A DNA stretch of 19,207 nucleotides. Source: Gemmatimonadota bacterium (lineage in GTDB: Bacteria; Latescibacterota; UBA2968; UBA8231). The notes beneath the pieces are model-generated. The model saw only the letters and a list, made by a program, of their open reading frames with translations. It did not search any database and was not told the DNA's origin. Every line of letters begins with the position of its first letter. Position 1 is the stretch's first letter. Positions 4,730-9,573 of the stretch are shown in pieces. A program made the position numbers and the translations under genes. The stretch spans positions 6,632-25,838 of the forward strand of contig PATE01000014.1 in the NCBI GenBank assembly GCA_002712305.1, read 5' to 3'.

Positions 4730-6208
4730 TCAGGCCTGACCCCAGGGCTTGATGGCTTCCTTCAACTGCTGGTATCCCTCGAGGAAGCCGGGACGCTCGT
4801 CTGCATACACCGTATCGAACGTGGCCAGAGCTGCGTCCAGCCAGTCGCTCAGTTCCTGATTGCCTGGGTTGGCGTCGAGATAGGCATCACGAATCAAAAC
4901 GAAGTGAATCCGGGGATCGTAAGGTCGCTTGGTGCCACCCATCGACTCGTCTCCATCGAGGAGTCGAAGCAACATGGCGTCCGCCGAGCCGAGGGTTTGC
5001 TCGTGGATGGGTGGGCCATCCATCCGATACATGACTGACGTCATGTCCCGGCCGTTGCCGGTCGTATACCCCATCTCACCCCAAAGATCGCTCATCTTCG
5101 CGTCGGCCCCCACTTTGTCGAGAACGAGCTGACCGAAGTGGCGCAAGGGATCGGACACATCAGCCAGCAGATCGGTGAGCCGGTCGCCATCCAGATCGGT
5201 GGCCAGCACGATGGCGTCCTGCTTGTCAATCAGATCCCACAGCAGCAAACCGTAGTTGGTGTCAGCAATGTGCTGTTCGATGCGGCCACTCCAACGATCC
5301 ATCCCCTCCTTGAAGTCCTTCGGCAACAGAGAGACGATGCGATCGACGCGTTCGCGATGCTCGACGTATCCGTCGACAGCGTACTTGCGTCCTACCTCGA
5401 ACTTCGTGTCCTGCAGCAGCCACGACAGCAGACCCGCATTGATGCCATCCTCCATGGCCTGCGTCGGCTTGAAGGCGACACGGCCGAGTTTCCCCGTCTC
5501 GTGCACCATCTGCAGGAAGCGTCGATTGGCATATGCCATCTGGATGCCAGGTGTATTCATCTCGGAGTGGATAATGCCCGTATCAGCGTTGACATCGAAG
5601 ACGGCCTTGTCCTGCGAATACGGCAAGCAGGGCATGCAGCGTACGGCGGTGATCGTGCCATAGGGTCGAACGTTGCAATACACGCCGGCCTGTGTTCTGA
5701 GCGGCGCATTGCCCGACTTGCCCTTCACCACCACCTTGCCGCCCTGGCCGTCGTTGACATAGGCATCGCCTGCCGTCGACCACTTGATCGACGTGCACGG
5801 CATGTTGCCGAACCAGGCCAACGGCTCAAGGTCGAGATCATGTCGGTACTGAGCCCACATCGGCACGCCATAGAAGGGCAGACCGAGAATGTCGCTCGCC
5901 GCAATCGTGCCCAGCAGGGCATAGGCATCGGTGAGCGAATGGGCGACGGGGTTGGCGGAGCCATCGTGATGGCCACCCTGCCAGATGACCGCGTCGGGAT
6001 AGCCCGTCGGGCACAGATCCGAAGGGCTGAACATGCCCTCAAGGAGTCCGAGCAGATCGCCCCCGTCGGCCTCGGTGCGCGCGATGTTCATCAGGTCCAG
6101 CATGCGGTCAACGTCTCCGGGATACAAGCGTTTGGAATGGACGAGGCGACACAGAGAGTCGCTCAGGAATCGGGCGCTGAATCTAACCGTGCTCGAGAAA
6201 ACCGGCAA
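4730..6208 (-). CDS. Large protein of unknown function
   Basis: I do not recognise this protein (492 residues from a TTG at 6208). It is predicted soluble: no signal peptide, no membrane segment. Visible traits are a G-Y-P-D-A-V-I-W-Q-G-G-H-H-D-G block, a W/Y/C-rich stretch (G-L-P-F-Y-G-V-P-M-W-A-Q-Y, then C-N-V-R-P-Y-G and V-R-C-M-P-C-L-P), a D-L-D-G-D-R-L-T-D loop that looks like a single Ca-binding loop but may be chance, and a long helical C-terminal half. The start is uncertain: TTG 6208 has weak ribosome-binding support, while ATG 6103 has GGAG 11 nt upstream and would give 457 residues; the extra 35 residues do read as plausible protein. It is upstream of moaC (11 bp) and divergent from groEL. 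The opposite strand also has a long open frame, judged a shadow. Confidence 0.65.
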   Translation of the reverse strand: MPVFSSTVRFSARFLSDSLCRLVHSKRLYPGDVDRMLDLMNIARTEADGGDLLGLLEGMFSPSDLCPTGYPDAVIWQGGHHDGSANPVAHSLTDAYALLGTIAASDILGLPFYGVPMWAQYRHDLDLEPLAWFGNMPCTSIKWSTAGDAYVNDGQGGKVVVKGKSGNAPLRTQAGVYCNVRPYGTITAVRCMPCLPYSQDKAVFDVNADTGIIHSEMNTPGIQMAYANRRFLQMVHETGKLGRVAFKPTQAMEDGINAGLLSWLLQDTKFEVGRKYAVDGYVEHRERVDRIVSLLPKDFKEGMDRWSGRIEQHIADTNYGLLLWDLIDKQDAIVLATDLDGDRLTDLLADVSDPLRHFGQLVLDKVGADAKMSDLWGEMGYTTGNGRDMTSVMYRMDGPPIHEQTLGSADAMLLRLLDGDESMGGTKRPYDPRIHFVLIRDAYLDANPGNQELSDWLDAALATFDTVYADERPGFLEGYQQLKEAIKPWGQA

Positions 6209-6440: not shown

Positions 6441-8066
<1,626 letters not shown>

Positions 8067-8110
8067 GACCAACCAAACGGCCTTTCGGTCGCTGGTTCGT
8101 CATACAATGG

Positions 8111-8146
8111 AAGAGGGGGCTTCCGCACAGCGGAAGCCCCCTCTTT
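8111..8146 (+). terminator. Intrinsic terminator of groEL
   Basis: A perfect 15-bp stem (8111-8125 pairing with 8131-8145) with loop CACAG is followed by TTTCTG. It lies 44 bp after the groEL stop, between groEL and the convergent bactofilin gene. The very stable GC-rich stem may also slow transcription from the other strand, although the T-run there is poor. Confidence 0.85.
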
Positions 8147-8165
8147 CTGCATCAGGTGTATCTGC

Positions 8166-8612
8166 TCAGGCAGCTGGTGCTTCGTCTTCAGCGACCGCTT
8201 CCTCTTCTGGAGCATCGGTCACATCGAGGCGGGCCCCTTCCTCAATCACCAGTCGGGGCGTGTGCACCGAACCGCGGAAGGCCGCTGTGGCCGTAAAGTG
8301 AATCGTCCGCGTTGCCTGCAGGTGCCCGCTGACACGACCGCGTACGATGGCTTCACCGACTTCCAGACGCTCGGCCTCGACAAGCCCTTCCTCACCCACG
8401 TCGAGACGTGCTGGTGTACGCAGCGTGCCTCTGAAGGATCCCTCCACGTGGACGATGTGGCCCACCTCAAGGGTACCCACCATGGAACTGCCCTGACCGA
8501 TGACGGTGGCCGACTCGGCATGGATCGATTCAGCACTCAAAGCCACAACTCGCCGATCTCTGGACGACGTTGCTGGCCGTCCTCGATAAGGGTGAATCGA
8601 ACGCCGAGCCAT
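8166..8612 (-). CDS. Bactofilin (polymer-forming cytoskeletal protein)
   Basis: The 148-residue protein has a bactofilin core at about residues 26-128, with the right-handed beta-helix pattern of short strands separated by glycines: I-G-Q-G-S-S-M-V-G-T-L, V-E-G-S-F-R-G-T-L, L-D-V-G-E-E-G-L-V, V-R-G-R-V-S-G-H-L and F-R-G-S-V-H-T. The tail is Glu/Ala-rich and probably disordered. Bactofilins assemble nucleotide-free filaments that scaffold cell-wall enzymes at the membrane. The ATG at 8612 overlaps the upstream gene by 76 nt and has no clear ribosome binding site; a GTG at 8546 would start just before the core with a 10-nt overlap and may be the true start. Its upstream neighbour is a LytM-type protein, a pairing seen with other bactofilins. 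Confidence 0.88.
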   Translation of the reverse strand: MARRSIHPYRGRPATSSRDRRVVALSAESIHAESATVIGQGSSMVGTLEVGHIVHVEGSFRGTLRTPARLDVGEEGLVEAERLEVGEAIVRGRVSGHLQATRTIHFTATAAFRGSVHTPRLVIEEGARLDVTDAPEEEAVAEDEAPAA

Positions 8613-9274
8613 GGGTGACTCAGACCCAGTGGCTGGCCCTTCTGTACGTACTGCCCATCTTCGATGGTCGACATGGACAACCCGGCATACTCGGTGAACA
8701 GACCGTTGCCGTGATCCAGACGCAGATGGTGGTCCCCGTCAGGCGCCATCGATGTTGCCACGACACGCCCGGCGGCCGTTGCACGCACCAGACTGCCCGC
8801 CGGGGGACGATAGACAAGAACTTCTCCTTCATAGTCGGGCGTCGTAGCTCGCACGGGCGTGAGGGTTGGCACGGTTCGCAGGCGACCATAACGGAGCCGG
8901 TCGACGACGCTGATCAGCTGTTCGCCCACACGGGGCGAGCGAGTCAGAGATTCGCTATCGCTGAGGCCCACCGCCTCGGCCGTGATGCGACGCAGCTGGG
9001 CGTTGCTCGCCTGCAATCCGTTCAGGATCACCTCCAGCTGGTCGACACGTTGGACCTCCTCCACAAGGATATCCTTGTCCCGCTGCAGGTGCTCAACCCG
9101 ACGCGCCAGCTCCTTCGATTCCAGCATGGCGTGGAGACCCATCACCAACACCACGAGCAGGGCGACGCCGGACAGAGCCGCCACCCACACCAAAACGCGG
9201 GGAATCTTGTATTCGTAGGTGCGGCCCCCCTCCTCGGGAATGATGAGGAGGGTCAGGCGTGGGCCGGGAGGCAT
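8537..9274 (-). CDS. Membrane-anchored coiled-coil protein with degenerate LytM (M23-like) domain
   Basis: Layout of the 245 residues: basic cytoplasmic N-terminus, one membrane segment at ~27-48, a charged coiled coil at ~50-100, a linker, and an M23/LytM fold at ~158-235. The fold is marked by R-A-T-A-A-G-R-V-V, L-D-H-G-N-G-L-F-T-E-Y and V-Q-K-G-Q-P-L-G. The zinc ligands are absent: the H-x3-D segment normally ahead of the G-x-x-V-x-A strand is V-L-V-Y-R-P-P-A-G, the usual Y-A-H-L-S is Y-A-G-L-S, and the terminal H-L-H is replaced by V-R-F. It therefore should not cleave peptidoglycan itself and may bind or activate partners, as known for degenerate LytM factors such as EnvC and NlpD. AAGGG sits 8 nt before the ATG. 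It starts 12 bp after the miniprotein gene and overlaps bactofilin. Confidence 0.85.
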   Translation of the reverse strand: MPPGPRLTLLIIPEEGGRTYEYKIPRVLVWVAALSGVALLVVLVMGLHAMLESKELARRVEHLQRDKDILVEEVQRVDQLEVILNGLQASNAQLRRITAEAVGLSDSESLTRSPRVGEQLISVVDRLRYGRLRTVPTLTPVRATTPDYEGEVLVYRPPAGSLVRATAAGRVVATSMAPDGDHHLRLDHGNGLFTEYAGLSMSTIEDGQYVQKGQPLGLSHPWLGVRFTLIEDGQQRRPEIGELWL

Positions 9275-9286
9275 GCGATCGCCCTT

Positions 9287-9496
9287 TCAGGCGAACAGAT
9301 CCAGGAGCGTACCGACCATGTCGTCGGAGGTACGCACCACATTCGCGTTGGCCTCGGCGTCGCGAATCGAGGTGATCAGATCGACGGATGTACTCACTGG
9401 TTCGGCCCGTCCAAACGCAGTTCGGTCAGCCGCCCCTTCGAGACGGGTTTCTGCGCTCTGTAGGCCAGTGGCCGCAATGTTGAGGGCGTCGATCAT
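9287..9496 (-). CDS. Flagellar basal-body rod-like miniprotein
   Basis: This 69-residue protein looks like the two ends of a rod/hook protein joined directly. Residues 1-22 (M-I-D-A-L-N-I-A-A-T-G-L-Q-S-A-E-T-R-L) resemble the N-terminal Flg_bb_rod helix. Residues 36-68 (V-D-L-I-T-S-I then A-N-A-N-V-V-R-T, and D-D-M-V-G-T-L-L-D-L-F) resemble the C-terminal Flg_bbr_C helix of FlgC/FlgF/FlgG/FlgE. The N-terminal A-N-N-x-A-N signature is degraded to A-A-D-R-T-A. Short stand-alone rod-like proteins of about 90-130 residues are known in several phyla; this one is shorter. No flagellar gene is nearby; instead it heads the LytM/bactofilin cassette, so its job may be envelope-related. Only a weak AGAAG precedes the ATG. 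Confidence 0.72.
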   Translation of the reverse strand: MIDALNIAATGLQSAETRLEGAADRTAFGRAEPVSTSVDLITSIRDAEANANVVRTSDDMVGTLLDLFA

Positions 9497-9537
9497 GATC
9501 TTCTATTCATAGTATCGGCATCAGGGGGGAAAAGGTA

Positions 9538-9573
9538 CAGCCACCTCAGATTGGGTCAAATCTGTGGCGGCTG
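9538..9573 (-). terminator. Probable intrinsic terminator of the isomerase gene
   Basis: Arms 9538-9552 and 9559-9573 pair at 13 of 15 positions around a 6-nt loop. Read on the - strand the stem is followed by TACCTTTT. It lies between the TIM-barrel isomerase stop and the miniprotein gene and would separate the two transcripts. A second hairpin lies upstream at 9588-9618. Confidence 0.55.

Follow-up and report, generated by a model that had tools for sequence, protein, structure and literature searches.

A short rod-like gene heads a bactofilin–LytM operon that may be associated with the flagellum

The window, by which we mean the whole 19,207-nucleotide stretch of DNA that was analysed (contig C35 of the host genome G000), carries an operon of three minus-strand genes that converges on groL and encodes a miniature flagellar rod-like protein (the mini), a LytM/M23 protein, and a bactofilin. 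With roughly even confidence, we interpret this operon as a form of the known bactofilin–M23 pair that is associated with the flagellum and in which assembly of the rod would be coupled to the cell wall. Since the work on Bacillus subtilis there has been no explanation of the way in which bactofilins influence the flagellum, and the operon offers a concrete, testable physical route.

RESULTS

Operon layout and gene order. The features considered here are the following.

9287..9496, minus strand: mini-rod gene, 69 aa
8537..9274, minus strand: LytM/M23 gene, 245 aa
8166..8612, minus strand: bactofilin gene from its mechanical ATG, 148 aa (8166..8549 with the likely GTG start)
6444..8066, plus strand: groL, the fixed neighbour by which the locus is recognised in nearly all relatives whose contig extends that far
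8110..8147, no strand assigned: bidirectional terminator-like hairpin, recognised from sequence, in the gap where bactofilin and groL converge
9538..9573, minus strand: weak hairpin 5' of the operon, CAGCCGCCACAGATT...AATCTGAGGTGGCTG, with a short T tail
9513..9519, minus strand: GCCGATA element, 23 nt 5' of the mini start

The tight packing on one strand described in an earlier note on this DNA was found in full, with a 12-bp gap between mini and M23 followed by an overlap of M23 and bactofilin. The overlap measures 76 nt from the mechanical ATG of the bactofilin and about 13 nt from the GTG near 8549, which is the likely start because homologues begin right at the M23 stop. That note also placed probable terminators on both sides of the operon. 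A long hairpin does separate bactofilin from groL (folding energy of -54.7 kcal/mol for the 100-nt region that contains it); the upstream hairpin is weaker and is possibly the terminator of the isomerase gene upstream.

The order groL/bactofilin/M23/mini was kept across the family (25 genomes compared), and the mini–M23 spacing stayed at 9-29 bp across 13 genomes, so the neighbourhood of the triad is conserved in relatives. A related-locus search of genome contigs returned one relative only. No paper on a mini/LytM/bactofilin triad was found in the literature searched, and the earlier note, too, knew of no such described system. A 492-aa protein encoded at 4730-6208 of the window (minus strand), which had no match in Pfam or NCBIfam, lies near groL in several relatives too.

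Conserved order and spacing favour the flagellum-associated reading. They also bear on its main rival, hitch-hiking, in which a flagellar accessory mini landed once upstream of a cell-shape M23–bactofilin pair in the family ancestor and stayed there by descent, with no joint function. We regard this as a real possibility, on balance unlikely: one insertion followed by vertical descent would explain the synteny, but a short mini–M23 gap has been maintained over deep divergence.

The mini is a D0-only rod protein. Taken alone, the window mini scored below the cut-off against the Pfam domain Flg_bbr_C (18.7 bits, cut-off 23), a domain matched by six of the 14 family members (best 3.7e-7). The 14 same-family homologues align across both ends, and when their profile was compared with the PDB both halves matched the two ends of FlgG (E = 2.5e-6), with a less strong match to FlgC. 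The rod-like identity proposed earlier, sub-threshold for the single protein, is thus solid with its homologues, and the match to the FlgG ends favours an association with the flagellum. An AF2 model of the window mini (pLDDT 70, moderate confidence) placed helices at residues 2-27 and 33-68. The D1 domain that would lie between them is absent, replaced by a linker of 5 residues in the window protein and one about 35-40 residues longer in other minis. Because the profile matches both FlgG ends and two helices are predicted, the mini corresponds to a rod protein reduced to its D0 part, the two terminal (D0) helices without D1. Foldseek searches with the model gave no significant match; the weak ones, at E 5-9, included the PrgI needle and the rod in its proximal part (7cg0).

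With FlgB, FlgC, FlgF, and FlgG the mini shares both D0 helices and the signatures SGL...R...AhNtAN and vrT.D.mlG.LLD. It differs from them in lacking D1, in its length (69-104 aa), and in being encoded outside flagellar operons, and its host genome encodes the full-size rod proteins and FliE as well. A role as stand-in for a missing FliE or FlgB/C was dropped for this reason, all of these being present. dN/dS values were 0.14-0.37 (seven pairs); the mini is a real gene under purifying selection, and the idea that it is a decaying FlgC was likewise discarded.

The LytM protein and its bactofilin partner. The bactofilin is identified with certainty from its sequence (PF04519, 70.8 bits, cut-off 27.9). 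The 245-aa protein matched Peptidase_M23 (PF01551) above the cut-off with 43.2 bits. Its layout comprises a short cytoplasmic tail (RLTLLIIPEEGGRTYEYK) that is conserved in the family alignment, one transmembrane helix (about residues 27-49, from hydropathy), a coiled coil assigned by eye, and a degenerate LytM domain at residues 155-219. Neither the window protein nor any of the 19 family members aligned has the zinc motifs HxxxD and HxH, which bears out the earlier description of the window protein as zinc-less. Most outgroup M23 proteins, those beside bactofilins in sister families, retain these motifs; the loss therefore most likely predates the flagellar losses described below. By its predicted domains, this is a bitopic pseudo-enzyme of LmdC architecture. 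Matches of M23 to RecA in the PDB search were set aside as summed chance matches.

That bactofilin and M23 proteins form a known pairing, as the earlier note had stated, is supported by LmdC and BacA of Hyphomonas neptunium and Rhodospirillum rubrum. There the M23 and bactofilin genes are likewise adjacent, and overlap in H. neptunium; LmdC is likewise bitopic, with a short cytoplasmic tail, a transmembrane helix, a coiled coil, and a C-terminal LytM domain; and the cytoplasmic tail of LmdC binds BacA (PMC10945521). LmdC, however, is an active endopeptidase in morphogenesis, whereas the window protein lacks the zinc site and a rod-like gene heads its operon. A degenerate, metal-free M23 protein is also found in Csd1-Csd2-CcmA of Helicobacter pylori, where Csd2 acts in the bactofilin's shape pathway (PMC5053510), but Csd2 pairs with an active Csd1 and sets helical shape, and no rod-like protein has been described with it.

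In the LytM factors EnvC and NlpD, a degenerate LytM domain activates an amidase; the domain of the window protein is degenerate, and amidase activation is putative here. In its cell-division form, this explanation makes the LytM protein an EnvC/NlpD-type activator that the other two genes merely modulate. It would fit the degeneracy of the domain in all members, the presence of Amidase_3 in 23/25 family genomes (a point also in favour of the flagellum-associated reading), and the retention of M23 in genomes without flagella. It leaves unexplained why mini and bactofilin track the flagellum, the short tail, transmembrane helix, and coiled coil are those of LmdC, and no division genes were recognised near the operon; we consider it improbable.

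The host is flagellated, and within the family the mini and the locus bactofilin occur only in flagellated members. The earlier note had remarked on the lack of flagellar genes around the operon. This is correct for the window but not for the genome, in which other contigs encode FliE, FliF, FlgB/C/F/G, FlhA, and hook-type proteins, with eight flagellin matches that also lie on contigs other than the window's. The premise of a flagellum-free host is thereby removed.

The family set consisted of 25 genomes, 15 flagellated and 10 non-flagellated. The mini was present in 14/15 flagellated and 0/10 non-flagellated members (Fisher 3e-6, with related genomes treated as independent), and the bactofilin of the locus in 13/15 and 0/10, respectively (Fisher 2e-5, under the same treatment). 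M23, in contrast, was found in 15/15 flagellated and 9/10 non-flagellated genomes. In gene maps, flagellated members show groL > < bactofilin < M23 < mini, and nine non-flagellated members show groL > < M23 alone; the tenth, G002, had a weak M23 match only. The absences in G018 and G024 are not gaps because these are single-contig assemblies. G009, which lacks several flagellar markers, was not counted as non-flagellated, since flagellins are present; the genome is 76% complete. A co-occurrence check proposed with the original observation thus found the gene order conserved and the mini confined, within the family, to flagellated hosts.

The same distribution largely refutes the version first proposed for the triad, a scaffold that spans the envelope, reuses a rod helix, and acts independently of the flagellum. 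The window without flagellar genes, and one genome outside the family (G025, see below) with a mini and no FlhA detected, would agree with it, but the host itself is flagellated and the mini is missing from 10/10 non-flagellated family members. We now consider a module of this kind very improbable.

A GroEL+M23 tree indicated two independent flagellar losses, in G015 and in a g7 subclade of eight. After each loss M23 itself stayed and its neighbours on both sides are absent, a pattern that favours a joint link of mini and bactofilin with the flagellum and argues against hitch-hiking. Because there are only two independent losses, a tree-based pair test cannot reach significance, which weighs against the flagellum-associated reading. 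So do the exceptions: G003 has a flagellum but no mini, and two further flagellated genomes, G006 and G012, have no bactofilin at the locus, breaks in the triad that hitch-hiking would accommodate.

A flagellar promoter element is suggested. The heptamer GCCGATA lies 23-28 nt 5' of the mini in 5/14 genomes from three genera (0.06 expected) and upstream of 0/395 other ORFs scored alike. Preceded by TAAAG, it also lies 5' of flagellin genes in these genomes, as the -10 box. We take TAAAG-N14/15-GCCGATAA to be the FliA (sigma-28) consensus and GCCGATA, presumably, to be a FliA box. Its position before the mini in these genomes favours a flagellar association. A TAAAG -35 element is not recognisable in the window, which counts on the other side, and a near-match, TAATG, was seen in G013; because the -35 part of the window is unrecognisable, FliA control of the operon is suggested only.

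Orphan mini-rod proteins in other bacteria. A profile search of 386 genomes detected similar short orphan proteins in many other bacterial families of many phyla. FlhA was present in 16/17 inspected genomes with an orphan mini outside the family, compared with 158/361 non-family genomes overall. The exception counts against a flagellar association: G025 carries an intact mini of about 120 aa at L212:4085-4450 (contig C92 of G025, minus strand), and FlhA was not found in that genome. In sister families of the class the mini sits beside an hpt-like gene and not beside bactofilin, and the M23–bactofilin pair occurs without a mini, also in non-flagellated genomes. Minis of sister families and other phyla had neither a bactofilin nor a related M23 gene in the surrounding several kb, apart from one M23 at about 4 kb. 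These arrangements favour hitch-hiking and count against the flagellum-associated reading. Taken with the FlhA co-occurrence, the orphan loci indicate that the mini goes with flagella generally, and that its link to bactofilin is family-specific within the scope of the search. Orphan mini-rod proteins thus form a widespread group, for which no described function was found.

Several neighbours of these orphans were named by eye. An hpt-like phosphoribosyltransferase gene adjoins the mini at the sister-family loci L152, L153, L154, and L155; mutL, and in some cases a glutaredoxin-like gene, lie near sister-family orphan minis. At L157:6065-6667 (G297), the orphan mini adjoins a 91-aa ORF resembling a YjfB-type putative motility protein.

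DISCUSSION

A proposed route from bactofilin to the rod. The only domain in FlgJ of this family is the rod-binding one, and a peptidoglycan hydrolase domain is lacking; the two proteins read are 142-186 aa long. The loci read were as follows.

L210:1351-1779, L211:422-982 (minus strand): FlgJ

Since this FlgJ carries no hydrolase, the rod should depend on another protein to open the wall, and the single-domain form in both proteins is in keeping with a flagellum-associated operon. We infer contacts among the mini, the LytM protein, and the bactofilin. The bactofilin would form a patch beneath the inner membrane and bind the LytM protein at its cytoplasmic tail, by analogy with BacA and LmdC. 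The LytM domain would extend to the peptidoglycan and, because it cannot cleave this itself, could recruit or activate a separate wall enzyme. The mini, exported or not, might pack against the proximal rod and so bring the wall-handling patch to the growing flagellum.

Bactofilins have been linked to flagellar assembly before: in B. subtilis PY79, BacE and BacF are needed for hook assembly (PMC4627819), and a change in the rod gene flhO suppresses bactofilin loss (PMC9103452). Like the LmdC tail–BacA binding, these genetics favour the flagellum-associated reading, and the link between bactofilin and rod argues against hitch-hiking. The B. subtilis effect is strain-dependent, which tempers the comparison, and neither an M23 partner nor a mini-rod gene is described for BacE/BacF in the two reports.

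A bolder form of the flagellum-associated reading, which we offer tentatively and consider doubtful, would make the D0-only protein a widespread flagellar component that has yet to be described. Its role in this family would be that of an adaptor docking the rod on a bactofilin/pseudo-LytM patch, with the bactofilin filament setting where or when the rod crosses the peptidoglycan.

A second bactofilin gene. The host genome has a second bactofilin gene immediately 5' of a flagellin-like gene on the same strand, at L119:5207-7238 (contig C84 of G000). We dropped the idea that this flagellin-adjacent copy is the flagellum-specific one, as it is kept, without the flagellin, in the non-flagellated genomes G002, G018, and G024. 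This arrangement was also examined at L179-L183, L187, L190, and L191; the bactofilin–flagellin-like pair, with a flagellin-like ORF of 230-410 aa, is present in every flagellated family member read, G003 excepted.
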